This document shows, in pieces, positions 10,258 through 51,349 of a DNA stretch of 64,000 nt (positions are counted from its first letter, which is position 1; each line of letters begins with the position of its first letter). The notes under the pieces were generated by a model that was not told the DNA's origin, ran no database searches, and worked only from the letters and a program-made list of their open reading frames with translations. A program made the translations under genes and the position numbers. The DNA lies in assembly GCA_003142595.1 (NCBI GenBank), contig PLMU01000004.1, forward strand, positions 1 to 64,000, in the 5' to 3' direction. Source of the stretch: Phycisphaerales bacterium. GTDB lineage: Bacteria > Planctomycetota > Phycisphaerae > Sedimentisphaerales > UBA12454.

Positions 10258-10992
10258 ATGTATTGTCAGAAATGCGGTTCTGAAAATCTTGAAAACGCTG
10301 CGATGTGCCAAAGCTGCGGCGGAGTGTTTGTTTACAGTAAACCGACGCGGACAAGCGGTATGGCGATTACTTCGATGATATTGAGCATAAGCAGCTTTCC
10401 GCTGCTGGGAGTGTTCGGCATCGTATGGATAATCGGTCTTGTATTCGGAATAATCGCGCTCAATCGCATTAATAAATCCGGCGGCCAACTCAGGGGCAAA
10501 AGCTTTGCTATTACAGGCATCGCAGTCTCGGCGTCGGGCCTTGCGGTTTTGCTGACATTCATAGGCATTCTGCTGCTCTTTAATTCCGCAAAGACAATTT
10601 CACTTAGCAAAAAACTTAAAATGCATACCGCAGCCGCTACGCCGGCAGAAATCGGCCAGAAACCATCTGTTAAGGGATGGGTTTGTATTCAGAATGACAA
10701 AACCAATCCTGCCGATAGCTGTATCGAAGCGTTGTTTACGCCGGGCCAGTTTGAGGCTAATGATTTGGCGATTACAATGAGTATGACGTGCGGCCCGGAA
10801 GGCCAAAAGCCTGTAGAGGCAAGCTGGCAGTTTGCCGGTAAAAAAGGTAAGGCCGATATTTATAACTTTACGATAAAGGTTCCAATCGGCCAAAGCACTC
10901 TAAGCACAAACAGTACAATCATATATGATGGTAAAGAGCAGAAGGTTTTCGAAGATAAGCAGATAAAAATTTATATCAAGCCGGAAAAATGA
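10258..10992 (+). CDS. Zinc-ribbon membrane protein (DUF4190-type)
   Basis: 244 residues; ribosome site GAGGTGG just upstream. The N-terminus is a zinc ribbon with two CxxC pairs (YCQKCGS and MCQSCGG). Two membrane segments follow (about 35-65 and 82-108) with the DUF4190 pattern SGMAITSMILSI...GIIALNRI. The last 130 residues are outside the membrane and begin with two cysteine-containing stretches (WVCIQ, DSCIEALF); I do not recognise this domain. Family members are of unknown function. Transcribed alone, with a convergent neighbour. Confidence 0.8.
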   Translation: MYCQKCGSENLENAAMCQSCGGVFVYSKPTRTSGMAITSMILSISSFPLLGVFGIVWIIGLVFGIIALNRINKSGGQLRGKSFAITGIAVSASGLAVLLTFIGILLLFNSAKTISLSKKLKMHTAAATPAEIGQKPSVKGWVCIQNDKTNPADSCIEALFTPGQFEANDLAITMSMTCGPEGQKPVEASWQFAGKKGKADIYNFTIKVPIGQSTLSTNSTIIYDGKEQKVFEDKQIKIYIKPEK

Positions 10993-10995
10993 AAG

Positions 10996-11493
10996 TTACG
11001 TTTTGTCGGCCGATTGTTTTTTCAGCGACAGCACATACAGAAGAATAAATATCCCCATACAGATAATGCAAATCCATTCTATCTGGTTATGCGAGAGCAG
11101 TCCAAATAAGCAATTTTCCTGCGCAGGCCAGAAAGGCGTTACATCATAATGGTAAATTCCGTCAATCAGAACATGAAACCATATCCCCAGAATTCCTGAG
11201 ATAATCATTTTAATGGCGTTTGTCTGATAGGGTATTCTGATTATTTTCATAAGCCAGGCAAGAATAGGCAATCCAGAATAAGCAACCAGTCCCCAGATTG
11301 CACCTATAGCGGCGCCTATGAGGAAAGTATGGGCGAGCCTGTGTATTGGTCTACCCAGATTCATTAAATCAACCAGCAGGACTTCGACATCAATCACGAC
11401 GTTCGCGAGCACAAACACCGGCAGGTCTATCCATTTTCGGAAAATAAACCCGACAAGTCCGGCCGGTCCAAAATGATAAGGTGTCATTGGCAT
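10996..11493 (-). CDS. YdjM/DUF457-like inner membrane protein, putative metal-dependent hydrolase
   Basis: 165 residues, four predicted membrane helices. The start MTPYHFGPAGL, the IDVE motif and the HRLAHT stretch resemble the YdjM (LexA-binding, putative hydrolase) family, in which His and Asp residues near the membrane are conserved. Function is not established. It ends 3 bases from the convergent gene's stop and is separated from divergent ftsW by about 115 bases. Confidence 0.6.
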   Translation of the reverse strand: MPMTPYHFGPAGLVGFIFRKWIDLPVFVLANVVIDVEVLLVDLMNLGRPIHRLAHTFLIGAAIGAIWGLVAYSGLPILAWLMKIIRIPYQTNAIKMIISGILGIWFHVLIDGIYHYDVTPFWPAQENCLFGLLSHNQIEWICIICMGIFILLYVLSLKKQSADKT

Positions 11494-11608
11494 TTGACCT
11501 ATTGTATATGATATGTGATATTTAGTCCAGATTTATCGGGATTGGACGCTAATGACTTTCGACTTTTCTGATTGATTATTTGTTTCATTTTGCGGATAAT
11601 CTTTTGTC

Positions 11609-12769
11609 GTGAAGATAATACCTGATAATCGGACGATTGCTAATATGGTGGTATGCCTGACGGTTACGCTGATGGCCATTGGGTCGGTCTTCGTCTTCAG
11701 CGCAAGCGCCAGAATCGACATGGAATACGACCTTACCAAATTTTATGCATATCCTGAATTTCGACAGGGGTTGTTTTTCTTCCTGGCAGTTTTTTTTGTA
11801 TTCGGGTTCAGCCTGATGGATTATAGAAAACTGGCCTTCTCCGGCAATACTCTCGGAAGCTGGCTTAAAAACCCTACAGTTTATCTTGTCGTGGTCAGCG
11901 TTATATTACTTGTATTGGTGCTTATTCCCGGTATAGGAGTGGAAATAAACAATGCCCGGCGGTGGCTGAGAATTCCACTTGGGCCTGCGTCAATCAGCTT
12001 TCAGCCGTCTGAACTGGCGAAATGGTCGATGATTTTGTTTATTCCTGCCGTTTCAGTTATGCTCGGCGAAAAATTAAAACTCTTTTTCAAAGGTTTTGTG
12101 CCGCTGTGTATGCTTATCGGCGTTGTAACTGCACTTATTTTAAAAGAGGATTTCGGCACCGCTTTGTTTGTTGCCTTTACAGGTTTTGTGCTTTTGTTCG
12201 TGGCGGGCGGCAAATGGTGGCATTTTCTTACGCCAATACCGATTCTGATTATTGGCTTTGCATTAGCGATATATACTTCTCCTGTAAGGATGGAAAGGAT
12301 AAAAACGTTTCTGGAGCCGGGCGACTCGACTTCGCAGACTTCCGGCTATCAAATCAGACAGTCTCTTATCGCCGTTTCGACCGGCGGCATTACGGGCAAA
12401 GGTCTGGGCAGAGGCATCAGCAAGTATGGCCATTTGCCGGAGGATACAACCGATTTTATTTTTTCGATAATTGCCGAGGAGCTTGGTTTTGTCGGCGCCG
12501 CGGCTATCGTGCTGCTTTTTATGCTTTATATAGTCCTTGGAATAATTATCATTTATAGATGTCCGGATGATTTTGGGAAATTGATAGCGTTTGGAATTGT
12601 TCTTGCGATTGCCCTGCAGGCAGCGGTAAATCTGGGTGTAGTAACCCGTCTTTTACCGACAAAGGGAATCGCACTTCCTTTCTTAAGTGCCGGCGGAACA
12701 CATTTACTCCTCACCGCCTCTGTTGCCGGAATACTTGCTTCCGTAGCACGAAGGAGTCAGGTGAAATGA
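11609..12769 (+). CDS. ftsW: FtsW/RodA/SpoVE-family peptidoglycan glycosyltransferase
   Basis: 386 residues, ten or so membrane helices, SEDS family. Diagnostic parts are QPSELAKW, the segment GYQIRQSLIAVSTGGITGKGLGRG, DFIFSIIAEELGF and the C-terminal PFLSAGGTHLL. SEDS proteins polymerise lipid II into glycan strands. The 4-base ATGA overlap with murG points to the divisome member FtsW instead of RodA. The start given is a GTG; an in-frame ATG lies at 11645, and neither has a clear ribosome site. Confidence 0.92.
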   Translation: MKIIPDNRTIANMVVCLTVTLMAIGSVFVFSASARIDMEYDLTKFYAYPEFRQGLFFFLAVFFVFGFSLMDYRKLAFSGNTLGSWLKNPTVYLVVVSVILLVLVLIPGIGVEINNARRWLRIPLGPASISFQPSELAKWSMILFIPAVSVMLGEKLKLFFKGFVPLCMLIGVVTALILKEDFGTALFVAFTGFVLLFVAGGKWWHFLTPIPILIIGFALAIYTSPVRMERIKTFLEPGDSTSQTSGYQIRQSLIAVSTGGITGKGLGRGISKYGHLPEDTTDFIFSIIAEELGFVGAAAIVLLFMLYIVLGIIIIYRCPDDFGKLIAFGIVLAIALQAAVNLGVVTRLLPTKGIALPFLSAGGTHLLLTASVAGILASVARRSQVK

Positions 12770-13872
12770 AACATTTTTATTTTGCCGGCGGCGGTACCGG
12801 AGGCCATATTTATCCAGCAGTTACGGTGGCTGAGGAGCTTTTGAAGAAAGAGCCGTCCTGCAAAATAACATTTTTTTGCAGCAGCCGGCCTATAGACGCC
12901 AGGATTCTTGAAGGGACGGGCTTTGATTTTATTCCTCTGCCTGCGAGGGGATTTTCAATGAATCCATTTCAGTTTCTTCTGTTTTTAAGGTCTATTTTTG
13001 CGGCAAAAAAAATAGTTAAACAGAAGATTCTTGGCGACAAGCCGCAAAATGCGGTCCTGTTCAGTATGGGAGGGTTTGTTTCCGCCGGCGCTGTTTTGGC
13101 GGCCAAAAGTTTAAATATTCCGGTTGCGATGCTTAATATAGACGCCGTGCCGGGCAAAGCGAATTCTTTTCTTGCCCGTTACGCAAAAGATATCTTTGTT
13201 CAGTTTGAAAAAACCAGCAATTATTTCGGCCTGAACAACAAAAAGGTGACGGTAACAGGCTGTCCATTGCGCGAGGCCTTTTTTAATCCTGATAAAGATA
13301 AGATTATCGAGCAGTTCAGTTTAAGTCCGAAAAAGAATATTCTTCTTATTACCGGCGCATCGGGCGGAGCGGCGAATATAAACAATGTAATAGGATTCCT
13401 ACTGGACCGGCTTGAAGCTTTTGCGTCAGTCTGGCAGATTGTTCATTTGGCCGGTATCGCTCATTATGATACTGTCCGGACGCTTTATAAGAAGACAGAG
13501 ATAACATACAAAGTTCTGGATTATTACGATGATATGCCGAATCTCCTTGCCGCGGCGGACCTTGTTATCGGCAGGGCGGGAGCGATGAGTATTGCCGAGT
13601 TTGCCGCCTCAGGAACCCCTGCGATATGTCTGCCTTATCCTTATCATCATGACCAGCATCAAAAGCTCAATGCCCAGCTTCTTACCGAGGCAGGCGGCGG
13701 AGTTATTGTTGAAGATTTATGCGATACGGAAAAGACCGCAAAGCTTTTATGGCCGGTTCTTTGCGAGCTAATCAGTTCGGACGAGAAACGCTTACTGATG
13801 AGGCAGAATTGTGCCGGGCTGGCGCATCCTGATGCAGCGGCTAAAATCGCGCAGATTCTGTTAAATTATTAA
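12766..13872 (+). CDS. murG: MurG, lipid II-forming N-acetylglucosaminyltransferase
   Basis: 368 residues, GT28 family. The N-terminal glycine loop AGGGTGGHIYPA and the acceptor-side MGGFVSAGAVLAA are present, followed by the UDP-GlcNAc-binding half with TGASGGA and GRAGAMSIAEFAASGTPAICLPYP. It adds GlcNAc to lipid I on the inner membrane face. Its start overlaps the ftsW stop (ATGA), so the two are translationally coupled. The rest of the division/cell wall cluster (murC, ftsQ, ftsZ) is not here. Confidence 0.96.
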   Translation: MKHFYFAGGGTGGHIYPAVTVAEELLKKEPSCKITFFCSSRPIDARILEGTGFDFIPLPARGFSMNPFQFLLFLRSIFAAKKIVKQKILGDKPQNAVLFSMGGFVSAGAVLAAKSLNIPVAMLNIDAVPGKANSFLARYAKDIFVQFEKTSNYFGLNNKKVTVTGCPLREAFFNPDKDKIIEQFSLSPKKNILLITGASGGAANINNVIGFLLDRLEAFASVWQIVHLAGIAHYDTVRTLYKKTEITYKVLDYYDDMPNLLAAADLVIGRAGAMSIAEFAASGTPAICLPYPYHHDQHQKLNAQLLTEAGGGVIVEDLCDTEKTAKLLWPVLCELISSDEKRLLMRQNCAGLAHPDAAAKIAQILLNY

Positions 13873-13928
13873 TTATTTTCTTTTTATTTGCATTACTTGA
13901 CGCTGAACATAAAATACTACTAAAGCGT

Positions 13929-16229
13929 ATGTCCAAAAAAGGACGAATTAAGATTATGAGCCTTGATTACCCCAAAAAACTGAATACAAGAGATATAATT
14001 TTATCGATATTCATAGTTATATGTCTTAATCCTTTTCTCTGCCCGGCCTTTGGCGATACCAAAGAAGATTCGGGCGGCCAGTTGAAAATTAATCGCTGGA
14101 CACTTTTCAATTCAACTGATGAGCAAATACGGATAGATACCGCAACTGAGCTGTTGAAAAACTCTGATGACCAGTCAAGAAAAATCCTTATAGAGGCTCT
14201 GGCCTCGTCCGATAATTCTGCAGCGCAAAGCTCTGTCTGCAAGGCAATAGCCAACTTTAGAAACCAGTCTCAGCTTATTCCTAATAGAAGTGATTTTATC
14301 GGACCTCTGATGAATATCATCAAGGGGCAAAACGCTGACGCTGCAAAACTTGCCGCACAAGGGTCTTTGGTTTTTAGTTTCAGAGAGGTCAAGAACCATT
14401 TAGATGAAATAATAAAAAATCGTGCTCTGCCGGCAGCGGCCAAAAAGAATGTGATTTACGCCCTTCAGATTCGTCCTGACAGAGAGGTTGTTCTGATGCT
14501 TATAGATTTACTGGACAACGATGACAAGGCAGTTGCATCTGCAGCGGCCGATGCTCTGCAGGAATGGATGCCGATAGGAAAAGATATTCAGCAGTGGCAG
14601 AAGATTCGCAGGGACATCGAAAGAGGCCGGCTGGATATTGTTCGCGAAAAGCTGCTTACGCAGCAGGACAAGATACGCCAGCTCAATGATGATGTTGCAA
14701 AATGGCAAAAAAGGTATCTCGCATCGCTGGATAATATCTATCAAGCAACGACGGATGATAATGCCAGGGCAAAATTTGTCGCTGAAAATCTTCTTTTCGA
14801 GCACAGTTCTGTCAGGCTTTGGGCAATCGAAAAAATTAATATGTGGCAAAAAAGCGGCAAACCTTTGCCTATTGATACACTGCAAAAACCTCTTATTCTG
14901 CTCATTTCTGCCCCCGACCCGGCCATAAGGCTTGCCACAGTGAAATTGCTTGGATTGCTGACCAATGTCAATTCCGCCAACGCATTGCTTGAGCAGCTTA
15001 AGGTGGAAACAGATACGAATGTTAAAACCGAGATTCTTATTGCGCTTGGGCATGTATGTAATTTTGCTCTTTCGCCCGGGGCCGAAGTCAAAATAAGCCC
15101 GCAGGTCAGGATTGAAACTTTGAATATCGCTTCCGATTTCTTCAAGGACGCCAATAGCGTGATAGCTGCCGAGGTTATACGGAATTTGCTTATGCAGGGT
15201 GGTCTTGAGAAGGCTGCGGTTAAACCTTATTTTGAGCTTATCGCCGCCAATTACCGCAAATCAAAGGACGAACAAATCAGGGCTCGACTTCTGGAAGAAA
15301 TGGCTCGATTGTGTGGCAACGACAGCTTTTACAAAGCTATTGCCGGCGAAGTCTTCAAGGATATTTTCATTGCCGCAATAGATAATAAAAACGAGCAGAT
15401 TGCCTCACCTGCCGTTACAGGCCTTATCAGAATTGACCAGGCTGGTGTGTTTGAAATGCTTAAACAAAAGGGCTTTGCCAGTCATTCGAGCGCCAAAATA
15501 CGCGCCGAACTAATTACTGCAGCCGGTCAAATCGGCACCCAGCAGGACCTTGACTGGCTCGGCGCTCTAACTATTAGCGCAGGTACGGATGAAGAACGAC
15601 AGCATGCTGCCGATTCAATGATGAATATCTTCCAGTATTGCAAAACTGAGGTTTTGATTTCATGGGCACAGCAGTTATCCGGCCGGGCCAAATCGAAGAA
15701 GGATGAGTTTCTTCTTACAAGAGCCAGGATAATGTTCGAAGCAGCGGAGAAAAAAGCCGAAGCCGAAAAGGATACCGCTACGCTTTTGTCTCTGCGGCGT
15801 ATGCTTGCCGACCAATATGCCGCCACTTCTCTTTATGGATTGGCCGCTAAATATTATGGAATGCTTCTGCTTGCCGCTACGGACCCGAATGAAAAGGAGC
15901 AGTTGACCGCCAAACTGCTCGATGTGGATTTGCGTTCAGGTCAGATAGAGTCCGCCAAACAGCTTTTGGCCAATGTCCTGCTTTCTTCTGATATTCTTCC
16001 GGATACGGCAGAGGCGAAAATTCTCAATAATTATTTTTCGCAAAGTCAGGATGCGCAGATGGCAAAGCAGATGTTTCTTTCTTTTGCCGCGATTAATATT
16101 GCCCCCGATAATCCGCGTCCGCAGTGGTCCGGCCAGCTCGAAAACTGGCAAAAACTTCTGGCAGTTGCTTCTGCCGCTGTCGCAGAGTCAAATATACCGG
16201 CAGATCATAACTCAAAAACGACAAAATAA
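13929..16229 (+). CDS. Exported HEAT-repeat protein
   Basis: 766 residues. A hydrophobic segment near residues 24-44 ends at CPAFGD, consistent with a signal peptide; an alternative ATG at 13956 would make the N-region shorter and more typical. The mature protein is nearly all alpha-helical, with repeated HEAT/armadillo-like units such as VLMLIDLLDNDDKAVASAAADAL and PAIRLATVKLLGLLTN, and more TPR-like helices in the last 150 residues. A likely periplasmic scaffold of unknown partner. It follows murG by 56 bases and may share its transcript. Confidence 0.75.
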   Translation: MSKKGRIKIMSLDYPKKLNTRDIILSIFIVICLNPFLCPAFGDTKEDSGGQLKINRWTLFNSTDEQIRIDTATELLKNSDDQSRKILIEALASSDNSAAQSSVCKAIANFRNQSQLIPNRSDFIGPLMNIIKGQNADAAKLAAQGSLVFSFREVKNHLDEIIKNRALPAAAKKNVIYALQIRPDREVVLMLIDLLDNDDKAVASAAADALQEWMPIGKDIQQWQKIRRDIERGRLDIVREKLLTQQDKIRQLNDDVAKWQKRYLASLDNIYQATTDDNARAKFVAENLLFEHSSVRLWAIEKINMWQKSGKPLPIDTLQKPLILLISAPDPAIRLATVKLLGLLTNVNSANALLEQLKVETDTNVKTEILIALGHVCNFALSPGAEVKISPQVRIETLNIASDFFKDANSVIAAEVIRNLLMQGGLEKAAVKPYFELIAANYRKSKDEQIRARLLEEMARLCGNDSFYKAIAGEVFKDIFIAAIDNKNEQIASPAVTGLIRIDQAGVFEMLKQKGFASHSSAKIRAELITAAGQIGTQQDLDWLGALTISAGTDEERQHAADSMMNIFQYCKTEVLISWAQQLSGRAKSKKDEFLLTRARIMFEAAEKKAEAEKDTATLLSLRRMLADQYAATSLYGLAAKYYGMLLLAATDPNEKEQLTAKLLDVDLRSGQIESAKQLLANVLLSSDILPDTAEAKILNNYFSQSQDAQMAKQMFLSFAAINIAPDNPRPQWSGQLENWQKLLAVASAAVAESNIPADHNSKTTK

Positions 16230-20842: not shown

Positions 20843-21727
20843 TTATTTACGAAGCAATTCGATAAAAGCTTTTAAATTATCGTTCATAGCCCGGTTTTTC
20901 CTGATTATTATGCCGGTCTGCCTTTTGAATCTTGACGATTCGGGATTATAGAATGGTATTGTTTTTAATGTTCCGTTTGTCAATTCATTTTTTATTGTTG
21001 TTTCGGGCATTATACTCACGCCTGCGTTTATTTCCACAACGCGTTTAATTATTTCTACGTTGTCGAATTCCATTACAGGTTTTACTGCTACATTATATCG
21101 CAGCAAAAACTGGTCAATGCAGTTTCTCGTCGGCAGGTTTCTGCCAAACGCGATGAAAGGCTGATATTGCAGCATATAAACATCTACGGAACTTTTTTTC
21201 GCAAACGAATGCTGCGGACTGCAAACGAATACGAGCGGCTCGGAAACGAAATCAAATACCTGAATGTCAGGATTGGTTCTCGGCACAGCAACCAATCCGA
21301 CGTCGATTTTGCCCAGCAGCAGTCTGTTATAAATCTCTGCATCGTCGAGATATTCGATGTCCAGATGAACCTCGGGATGAATCGCGATGAATTTCTTAAC
21401 GTAACTCTGGAGACTATACATGCCTATGCTGTAAATAGCCGCTATGCTGATTTTGCTTTTAGCCGAATTTTTCAGATAATTTAAACTGCTCTGGAAATTT
21501 TCATATCGGCTCAGCATATCTTTGCTCGTGTTATAAAATAGTTCCCCGGCCGGAGTCAGGCCGAACGATTTTTTATGCCGGTCGATTAAAGGCGTATTAA
21601 ATGATTTTTCAAGCTGTGCCAGCTGCTGCGAGACTGCGGACTGGCTTATCATATTTTTCTCAGCCGCGCGGGAAAAACTTTTCAGCTCCGCTAAATCGCA
21701 AAAAATTTGTAATGAGTCTATATGCAT
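20843..21727 (-). CDS. LysR-family transcriptional regulator
   Basis: 294 residues. The N-terminal winged helix-turn-helix is typical: LQIFCDLAELKSFSRAAE, SQSAVSQQLAQLEK, then LTPAGELFY. The substrate-binding domain follows (KISIAAIYSIGMYSL, LVFVCSPQHSFAKK, GVSIMPETTI). It resembles the CysB/CbbR type; the effector is unknown. It lies one base after the stop of the PEP-binding fusion gene, so both are made from one transcript starting near gdhA. An inverted repeat of LysR type lies in that shared promoter region. Confidence 0.93.
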   Translation of the reverse strand: MHIDSLQIFCDLAELKSFSRAAEKNMISQSAVSQQLAQLEKSFNTPLIDRHKKSFGLTPAGELFYNTSKDMLSRYENFQSSLNYLKNSAKSKISIAAIYSIGMYSLQSYVKKFIAIHPEVHLDIEYLDDAEIYNRLLLGKIDVGLVAVPRTNPDIQVFDFVSEPLVFVCSPQHSFAKKSSVDVYMLQYQPFIAFGRNLPTRNCIDQFLLRYNVAVKPVMEFDNVEIIKRVVEINAGVSIMPETTIKNELTNGTLKTIPFYNPESSRFKRQTGIIIRKNRAMNDNLKAFIELLRK

Positions 21728-21728
21728 A

Positions 21729-24338
21729 TTATTTACAATAACAAATGAATTTTTGTTCTATGGCGTTGGCATAAAGATTTATTTTTTTACCCGGACAGGC
21801 CTGCTGCGGGTCGATTACCTTTAATACATTTGTCCAGATACTCGCTTCAGGAAAGATTTCAGTCAGCTTATTGAGCGAATTTTCAAAGAAATCCGTCCTG
21901 AAAGTATTAGTCTGCCTGTGCGGCAATAGGCCAAGATACAGCGTATCGCTTTCAATCAGGTCGTTGAAGAAATGTGTGCCCAGCGAAATATCCGCCGACA
22001 TTTCCTTGTTAAGCATTACTATTTCCACGAGCACACTGATTGTGTTTATTTCCGGATATGATACCGGCACTCCCAGCGACGGTGTGCTTGTGCCCCATCT
22101 GCCCGGACCCAGCAGCATTATCGTCTTGTCTTTCTCAGTTTCTATATGGCTCAATTTTCCGATGAGTCTTGCAATCGCATATCTGTCGGAAATTTTAAGT
22201 TTTGTATATTGCTCCGGCGAAATATAAATCACCTGGTCTATTATAATATTTCTGTTTTGTCCCACGACCGGTCCCGAAGCGTCGATAATCAAATCCTTAG
22301 ATTCTTTTTTCATAGCCGGGTCGATTATTGCTCCGCCTCCTTTATGTTCCAGCGGCCTGCACTGGAGAATGTTTATTTTATAATCGGTTTCATTCAAAAA
22401 GTTTACCGTAAATTCCACGTCCACCGGCGATTCGTAAATACCCTGGAGAATTTTCAGTATTTCCTGCATATCTTTTGCGAAATTGGTTTTTGTCAGAAGT
22501 TTTTCAAAAGTTAACGATTGGCTGAAAATCTCTTTTCGTCCTAATTGCGCCGCCCGTTTTTCCATTTCCCTGTCGCGCGGCGCGAAAAGTTCCAGCAGCA
22601 GTTTATCGTCCGTCGCAGCGGCTGCTACTTCCGCGAAAGGCCTTGAAACAAACTCCTTTGCTTCGAGGTCTATGCAATCGACCTTTTGCTGGGTGTATTT
22701 TCGTGCGGTTTCGCTCGATTCCGGCCTTCTTGCCGGCGCGTTCAGAGCCACGATTCTGGCGTAATCGTCGTCGTGCCTGTCAACAGCTCTTGTGCCCAGT
22801 CCGAAGACAAGTCTTATCATTCCGGCTTTGGGGTCGATATTTTCATTCCATACGTAAGGATTGAACGAAAGGGCGACGCCCGCCGCCTGCGGGAAAAAGT
22901 ATCTGCCGTGCGGTGCGCCGGAAACCCGCTGTACCAAAAGTCCCATCGGCTCATCTTTTTCCAGAAGTCCCCATTTCGCCCTATACATCAGGGCATCTTC
23001 GCTCATACTGCTTGCGTATATTTTTCTTACAGCGTCGGTAAATTCCGCAAGTCTTTGCTGTCTTGTTCCCTGGTTTGTGCAGAAAAAGCTTTCGTATTTG
23101 CCCGCGAAGGCATTTCCATAATTATCTTCGAGCAGCGAGCTTGAGCGGACGATAATCGGGCTTTGTCCGAAGTAATCGAGCACATCGCTGAACTGCTTTA
23201 TGATATAATCCGGAAAATCTCCCTGAAGGATTCTTTGCCTGCCTTCTGCCGCTCCGTCCAGAAAGTTGGTGCTGATTCGCTGCTTCTGTCTTATCCACCA
23301 GATTTTATTTCTTACAAGGTATGTATAAAAAACATCCGAGCCGATGAAGAATGAATCGTGCGCTTCGAGAACCTGTTTGAATCTGCTGTCTGTTTTTTCG
23401 AGTATCGCCCGCGCCAGCAGCATACCGACGCTCTTGCCGCCTATCAGACCCGTGCCGAGCATTCTATTCCTTATGCGTATAATGTCCGCAATATTCAGGT
23501 ATTTCCTGATCATCTTCATAATTCGCTCGTCCCGCGATACAGCCATCCTGGCGACCTGCTCGAATTTTTTGGCAAGGTCGCTGTCGCTGCATTTCCCCTT
23601 TTCATGATCATTTAAAAGCTGCTCTGCCTCGTGGAATGTCTTTGCCCAGAATCCGAGTCTTTCATTTGCGACATCGAGCTCGACGCCGCTGACGTTTGTC
23701 AGGATTTCGGTAATCGTTCCGCTATCGCGCACCGGCAGAAAATCGTCTTCCTTCCACAAATGTATCGTATTCATTGTGGTCGAGTACCTGGCGTCCACTT
23801 TCAGCGGATGAACATATATATCGCCCTTATATTTATAAACATTGGAGACAATCTGCGCCGTCTCGAGTATTGGTCTTGTGGCGTGGTTAGAATGATGATT
23901 CCGCAGCAGGGCGAATGTCGTTACGGTCTGGGCATAATACAAATACGGGCAGACCTGCATAAAGAAATTGCCCAGCATCCTGTCGTTGCACCATGCCGGC
24001 GCAAGTTCGCTCAGGCAGTCGAAAAGATAATAATGTCCTTTGCCGAACTGATTTATTACGTTGTGAACTTTTGTAGTGAATGTTTCGAATCCCTGTTCTG
24101 CATCCAGCTCAATCACATTTGCTCCCTGCTCTGCGGTTACAAACGGTGCATGTTTGCCGAATCTGAAATAAACAAGCTCCCATCCGCTGCTCAGGGCGTT
24201 TTCGCAGTAAGCTTCCACGATAGGTCTGAAATCGTCGAGGCTGTCCACCAGCCAGACGATATTATCGCCGGGCAAGACCTGTTTGATTATCTTGTCAAAC
24301 CCCGGCAAACCTGTGCTTAATCTTTCGTTCGGCTTCAT
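21729..24338 (-). CDS. KaiC-like domain fused to PEP/pyruvate-binding (PPDK-type) ATP-grasp domain
   Basis: 869 residues. Residues 1-200 look like a RecA/KaiC-type domain (STGLPGFDKII at the start), but the P-loop position reads VDSLDDFRP, so it cannot bind ATP in the usual way. From about 290 come PPS/PPDK nucleotide-binding sequences: GGKSVGMLLARA, the core RSSSLLEDNYGNAFAGKYES near 400, and LQCRPLE near 680. The last 150 residues have GPGRWGTSTPSLGVPV, seen in PEP/pyruvate-binding-domain proteins. I see no swivelling phospho-His domain, so it is probably not a complete PEP synthase. It may be a regulatory or partial phosphotransfer enzyme. Transcribed away from gdhA and together with the LysR gene. 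Confidence 0.8.
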   Translation of the reverse strand: MKPNERLSTGLPGFDKIIKQVLPGDNIVWLVDSLDDFRPIVEAYCENALSSGWELVYFRFGKHAPFVTAEQGANVIELDAEQGFETFTTKVHNVINQFGKGHYYLFDCLSELAPAWCNDRMLGNFFMQVCPYLYYAQTVTTFALLRNHHSNHATRPILETAQIVSNVYKYKGDIYVHPLKVDARYSTTMNTIHLWKEDDFLPVRDSGTITEILTNVSGVELDVANERLGFWAKTFHEAEQLLNDHEKGKCSDSDLAKKFEQVARMAVSRDERIMKMIRKYLNIADIIRIRNRMLGTGLIGGKSVGMLLARAILEKTDSRFKQVLEAHDSFFIGSDVFYTYLVRNKIWWIRQKQRISTNFLDGAAEGRQRILQGDFPDYIIKQFSDVLDYFGQSPIIVRSSSLLEDNYGNAFAGKYESFFCTNQGTRQQRLAEFTDAVRKIYASSMSEDALMYRAKWGLLEKDEPMGLLVQRVSGAPHGRYFFPQAAGVALSFNPYVWNENIDPKAGMIRLVFGLGTRAVDRHDDDYARIVALNAPARRPESSETARKYTQQKVDCIDLEAKEFVSRPFAEVAAAATDDKLLLELFAPRDREMEKRAAQLGRKEIFSQSLTFEKLLTKTNFAKDMQEILKILQGIYESPVDVEFTVNFLNETDYKINILQCRPLEHKGGGAIIDPAMKKESKDLIIDASGPVVGQNRNIIIDQVIYISPEQYTKLKISDRYAIARLIGKLSHIETEKDKTIMLLGPGRWGTSTPSLGVPVSYPEINTISVLVEIVMLNKEMSADISLGTHFFNDLIESDTLYLGLLPHRQTNTFRTDFFENSLNKLTEIFPEASIWTNVLKVIDPQQACPGKKINLYANAIEQKFICYCK

Positions 24339-24392: not shown

Positions 24393-24409
24393 TATAAGTT
24401 TTACTTATA
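24393..24409. promoter_or_regulatory. Inverted repeat, candidate LysR operator between PEP-binding gene and gdhA
   Basis: TATAAGT-TTT-ACTTATA is a perfect 7+7 inverted repeat containing a T-N11-A core, the hallmark of LysR-type sites. It lies 55 bases upstream of the reverse-strand fusion gene and about 150 bases before gdhA. A TATAAT follows at 24415-24420 and could be the -10 of gdhA. Confidence 0.5.
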
Positions 24410-24485: not shown

Positions 24486-25904
<1,419 letters not shown>

Positions 25905-51135: not shown

Positions 51136-51161
51136 AAAAATCTTTTTTATATCGCTTCCTA

Positions 51162-51239
51162 CGCAGGCATTCCCATAAAGGGATAATCCTGTTCAGGTTC
51201 AAAGGGTATTTTCTCAGGCCTTTATTAGCCACCCCTGCG
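51162..51239 (-). ncRNA. TPP riboswitch (THI box) upstream of thiC
   Basis: On the reverse strand the P1 stem CGCAGG/CCTGCG closes the element at 51234-51239 and 51162-51167. Inside are the invariant CTGAGA (51212-51217) and ACCCTTTGAACCTGA, with the second arm ending in ATCCC and GGGAATGCC. This is the normal TPP aptamer. A terminator hairpin follows at 51107-51135. Confidence 0.93.
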
Positions 51240-51349
51240 AAAATAAGTATAAACCTGTATATTAAGCCGGTCAAGAGTAAATATATGTTGCAATTTTATA
51301 TAACTTCTGGCATATTCCTGACTTTTGCAGTTTTGGAGGTATTTCTTAG

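Follow-up and report, generated by a model that had tools for sequence, protein, structure and literature searches.

The window, the whole stretch of 64,000 nucleotides of Phycisphaerales DNA analyzed here, contains at positions 21729 to 24338 of the minus strand an open reading frame for a protein of 869 amino acids with KaiC-like, ATP-grasp, and swivel-like parts, as judged from the open reading frame, its homologues, and an AlphaFold2 model. Of 59 related genomes, most carry a stop-free homologue, and at least 547 stretches encoding homologues are found among the GTDB species genomes, in bacteria and in a few archaeal MAGs; the frame is thus a real gene under selection. Divergent from it lies gdhA (24561 to 25904, plus strand), encoding an NADP-specific glutamate dehydrogenase (GDH) (NF006929, 769 bits with a cutoff of 536) that is the sole ELFV dehydrogenase match of the genome (a single PF00208 match). 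The promoter region common to both genes comprises 222 bp. On the other side, a gene for a LysR-type regulator (20843 to 21727, minus strand; PF00126 and PF03466) starts 1 base downstream of the 869-residue frame on the same strand, and the two are probably cotranscribed. The divergent promoter region holds an inverted repeat resembling a LysR box, TATAAG-N5-CTTATA (24393 to 24409), which is nearly invariant across 8 related genomes. Together with the adjoining LysR gene and the common promoter region, the conservation of this candidate site suggests that the regulator may jointly control gdhA and the gene of the 869-residue protein. The LysR gene also adjoins the gene in family-level relatives; it is a local partner within the window's order and not a constant one. 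The sole Rfam match in the window is a TPP riboswitch (RF00059, 61 bits) at positions 51139 to 51246 of the minus strand.

The only significant Pfam family of the protein is PPDK_N (PF01326), which matches residues 298 to 667 with an E value of 1.8e-47. KaiC, PEP-utilizers (PF00391), and PEP-utilizers_C (PF02896) show no match at E values up to 1, and NCBIfam gives only partial matches below threshold to PEP synthases, rifampin phosphotransferases (RPH), and similar ATP-grasp enzymes. The AlphaFold2 model, built on 77 sequences, shows a mean pLDDT of 86 and a pTM of 0.83. The PEP/pyruvate TIM barrel (PF02896) is missing, with the protein stopping after the C-terminal GPGRWG domain, and the genome carries a separate PPDK of 917 amino acids. 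These two findings support the view of the first-pass annotation that the protein does not make PEP; a role as the PEP-making enzyme of its genome is ruled out by the separate PPDK.

Residues 3 to 216 (23691 to 24332, minus strand) form a degenerate KaiC-like domain with a RecA fold, assigned with VIA-align and by checks of motifs and conservation. Alignment of the AlphaFold2 model with the CII domain of KaiC gives a Z score of about 20 and an rmsd of about 3.2 Å, with 195 to 205 residues aligned. The domain shares with KaiC the RecA fold and a Walker-B-like aspartate, the invariant D107 in the sequence FDCLS, but differs from it in the loss of Walker A. No P-loop is present at the expected position in the 104 KaiC-type sequences checked, where GDN(V/I)VWQVDS is found instead; three matches to the Walker A pattern elsewhere in these sequences are due to chance. 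Furthermore, the CI-CII tandem of ATPase domains typical of KaiC is not found in the model, which shows a single KaiC-like copy fused to the ATP-grasp module that follows it. The RecA/KaiC-like nature of the N-terminal part and the loss of its P-loop, both proposed in the first-pass annotation, are thereby confirmed.

The ATP-grasp (PPDK_N) domain extends over residues 263 to 668 (22335 to 23552, minus strand) and is assigned by the Pfam match and by structural comparison. With VIA-align, it reaches Z scores of 21 to 25 with the ATP domains of RPH and PEP synthase, the top match being the rifampin phosphotransferase 5hv1 (Z 25), while PEP synthase 2ols gives a Z score of 23. The 869-residue protein differs from RPH in having no rifampin-binding domain and in its gene context. 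K302 (GGK), R398 (VRSSS), E642, and Q659 and R661 (LQCR) do not vary among 77 KaiC-type sequences, 75 of which also retain D640; from established knowledge of PPDK, we take these six residues to be those of the ATP site. True PPDKs of related genomes carry the same motifs. The similarity to PPDK and PEP synthase comprises the GGK, VRS, DxEF, and LQCR residues and, by a weak structural match, a swivel-like domain after the ATP-grasp domain, whereas the PEP/pyruvate barrel and the canonical GGxTSHAA sequence are absent. PPDK_N, the part that is retained, is the domain for binding ATP/AMP and not PEP. A PEP-binding module, as originally annotated, is ruled out, since the PEP barrel is the part that is missing.

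Residues 670 to 869 (21732 to 22331, minus strand) form the GPGRWG domain, which is described from a separate model of residues 665 to 869 (pLDDT 87) and its weak structural matches. No sequence link to PPDK His domains is found with hhalign, a profile search of the PDB gives no match, a Foldseek search with the model gives none under an E value of 0.001, and the canonical phosphohistidine motif GGxTSHAA is absent. VIA-align returns weak matches with Z scores of 4 to 6 (at most 5.8), unrelated entries among them. Besides the unrelated entries, the matches include the phosphoryl carrier domain of PPDK (2fm4; 118 residues, Z 5.4), the His domain of RPH (5fbu, residues 755 to 867; Z 5.4), C-terminal domains of pyruvate kinases, LD-carboxypeptidases, and apical domains of chaperonins, all of which we take to be swivelling β/β/α domains. 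The separate model shows the order β, β, α, β, α, β, loop, α, β, and a final β pair, presumably in agreement with the PPDK His domain. H789, proposed as the phospho-acceptor because of its conservation (codon at 21972 to 21974, minus strand), lies in the loop before the helix after the third core strand, which we assume to be the position of the phosphohistidine in PPDK. This residue is invariant in all 77 KaiC-type proteins and in 20/20 sequences of a set with core-only relatives (see below), in which the GRWG motif and E772 are likewise fully conserved. The strand and helix order, the several weak matches of the same fold, and the invariant H789 suggest that the domain is a strongly diverged swivelling phosphohistidine domain, an assignment that is likely but unproven. 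These three features make the earlier statement that a phospho-His domain is lacking doubtful, although Pfam and profile searches give no match.

The coupling of the family to nitrogen metabolism is strong. In a sample of 80 KaiC-type loci with flanks of up to 8 kb, GDH is found within 8 kb in 34, NrpR (called by PF01995) in 12, and GltB (called by its four Pfam domains) in 11; any of the nitrogen assimilation genes sought lies near 44 of the loci, and near 26 of the 38 with at least 10 kb of total flank. GDH occurs in four arrangements, upstream or downstream and on the same or the opposite strand (17, 9, 5, and 3 loci), and the GDH-linked loci span at least 13 named phyla, mostly by MAG assignments. 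Within the window's order, gdhA lies within 5 kb of the gene in 21 of the 35 genomes having both, and NifA (4 proteins) and Amt (2 proteins) score above curated cutoffs among the neighbors at several loci with no adjacent GDH. As a control, 33 PtsI/PPDK-type PF00391 matches from 13 genomes were compared with GDH positions, and no GDH is found within 5 kb of any of them. Genomes with the gene carry NADP-GDH in 35 of 40 cases, against 9 of 19 for those lacking the gene (Fisher P value of 0.003, relatedness ignored). The 9 of 59 related genomes that carry gdhA without this gene indicate that GDH does not require the 869-residue protein. No diagnostic GDH residues distinguish genomes with the gene from those without it, the latter being represented by only six sequences, and no second theme is obvious by eye among the neighbors of loci without nitrogen genes. 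At two such loci of related genomes (L163 and L167), a thiC-like neighbor of 438 to 452 amino acids was recognized by eye. In a spirochaete MAG (L108, positions 10768 to 15354, minus strand), a 1,529-residue fusion of two flavoprotein/ferredoxin units, one GltD-like and a second with an FAD/4Fe-4S part, lies near the homologue.

With gene order conserved and the N-terminal part RecA-like in the structural model, the original observation stands, and the link to nitrogen metabolism that it proposed extends far outside the Phycisphaerae. Of the control link drawn at that time from both gdhA and LysR, the tie to nitrogen metabolism is supported by the conserved gdhA linkage; LysR is a local partner within the window's order.

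Among 392 genomes searched within the phylum, there are also proteins that have only the ATP-grasp and GPGRWG core in common. Their N termini are short and helical, receiver-like (weakly, by PF00072), or GAF-like (by eye). GDH lies beside the core-only gene in 16 of 20 stretches, and ten of these 16 GDHs belong to a second subfamily with about 32% identity to the window's GdhA; the GDH at L113 scores highest with archaeal-type GdhA, below the cutoff. Two further phyla also have the core, one in 33 of 174 genomes and the other in 37 of 198; in these phyla, 29 of 39 loci lie near GDH and 2 have GltB at 46 to 64 bp (31/39 together). In a FastTree tree of the core, the KaiC, receiver, and GAF types form one group each, and GDH adjacency requires 20 changes, which indicates that the pairing has often been rearranged and yet kept or remade. 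The GAF-type proteins of L123 and L132, both encoded beside GDH, carry a nucleotidyltransferase domain after the core (NTP_transf_2, E value of 4e-6 in L123), which recalls the uridylyltransferases of nitrogen control. Several core-family copies per genome occur in G451 (C184, L272) and G597, with three copies within 7 kb of one another in G451.

The invariant ATP-site residues, H789, the GDH linkage, and the precedent of VadK lead us to favor, with some reserve, a function of the 869-residue protein as a regulatory phosphotransferase for GDH or ammonium assimilation. The ATP-grasp domain would bind ATP and pass phosphate to a histidine of the swivel-like domain at the C terminus, most likely H789; once phosphorylated or bound to nucleotide, the protein would then act on GDH or a partner through phosphate transfer or binding, so that glutamate synthesis would be matched to energy and nitrogen supply. 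The KaiC-like, receiver-like, GAF-like, and short helical N-terminal modules would be interchangeable and form the input side, where they may sense or assemble. The domain architecture, the invariant residues, and the coupling across phyla to GDH, GOGAT, NrpR, NifA, and Amt genes are demonstrated here; ATP-driven catalysis, H789 as the acceptor, GDH as the direct target, and a sensed signal are what we infer. Several observations speak against such a phosphotransferase: the weak likeness of the C-terminal domain to the phosphohistidine domain, which sequence comparison does not support, the absent GGxTSHAA motif, the lack of diagnostic GDH residues, the nine genomes that have gdhA but not this gene, and loci without a nearby nitrogen gene.

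VadK (Rv1127c) of mycobacteria is a PPDK-derived histidine kinase without a PEP domain, which autophosphorylates at His422 and interacts with enzymes of the methylcitrate cycle (PMC13400623). Both proteins show an ATP-grasp domain followed by a His-bearing domain (here from a weak structural match), the loss of the PEP/pyruvate domain, and an association with metabolic enzymes that are apparently regulated (here judged from gene linkage). Contrary to VadK, which retains the PPDK-type His domain, the 869-residue protein has a strongly diverged one and an additional N-terminal sensor-like domain, and its association is with GDH, GOGAT, and nitrogen regulator genes in many phyla instead of the methylcitrate cycle. 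The protein would function in the manner of VadK but, since its His domain is unrecognizable by sequence, is kept out of the VadK group.

Of the alternatives to a regulatory phosphotransferase, a noncatalytic energy sensor is the likeliest, although it too is unlikely. Here, the ATP-grasp domain would bind ATP, ADP, or AMP and control the GDH hexamer through direct binding without phosphate transfer, and the KaiC-like domain might, with the same low probability, serve as an assembly platform. A KaiC domain without a P-loop, the missing canonical phospho-His motif, and a GDH linkage suited to a binding partner are all consistent with this; however, K302, R398, E642, Q659, R661, and H789 are invariant across many phyla, and nucleotide binding alone needs less. 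The invariance of the catalytic residues likewise makes the sensing or tethering without catalysis suggested in the first-pass annotation less likely than phosphotransfer. It is improbable that the protein is a metabolic enzyme, namely a new dikinase or ligase for a small molecule of glutamate metabolism (2-oxoglutarate, glutamate, or ammonia) with its acceptor site elsewhere in the protein. Sequence and fold comparisons lead to PEP synthases and rifampin phosphotransferases as the solved relatives, enzymes whose phosphate acceptors are small molecules, and the neighbors are enzymes of glutamate metabolism, but the domain with the acceptor site of PPDK and RPH is missing, the N-terminal domains vary by subfamily so that no conserved third site is visible, and GDH is present in other genomes without the 869-residue protein. 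An incidental adjacency, in which an operon was inherited together or a gene pair moved horizontally with no functional tie, is highly improbable: the linkage is missing in some loci and genomes and MAG binning can misplace contigs, but the genes stand in four arrangements, the core comes in four architectures, the GDHs belong to two subfamilies, the partner shifts in places to GltB, NrpR, NifA, or Amt, and the 20 adjacency changes on the core tree show a pairing broken and then kept or remade many times.

To our knowledge, few model bacteria have been studied closely enough to show in detail how GDH and GOGAT are controlled. The open literature, to which the search was confined, yielded no description of a PPDK_N family linked to GDH, and automatic annotation conceals the family under PEP-synthase-like names. 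A broader reading, held only tentatively and with more doubt than confidence, is that of a cross-phylum signaling superfamily in which ATP-driven histidine phosphorylation, with swappable sensors including a dead KaiC, would act directly on GDH or glutamate synthase. As a regulatory phosphotransferase, the family would extend the idea introduced with VadK, that of PPDK-type enzymes turned into regulatory kinases, and the one named histidine, H789, offers a simply testable site. A widespread uncharacterized protein tied to GDH and GOGAT genes in many phyla points to a general layer of control.
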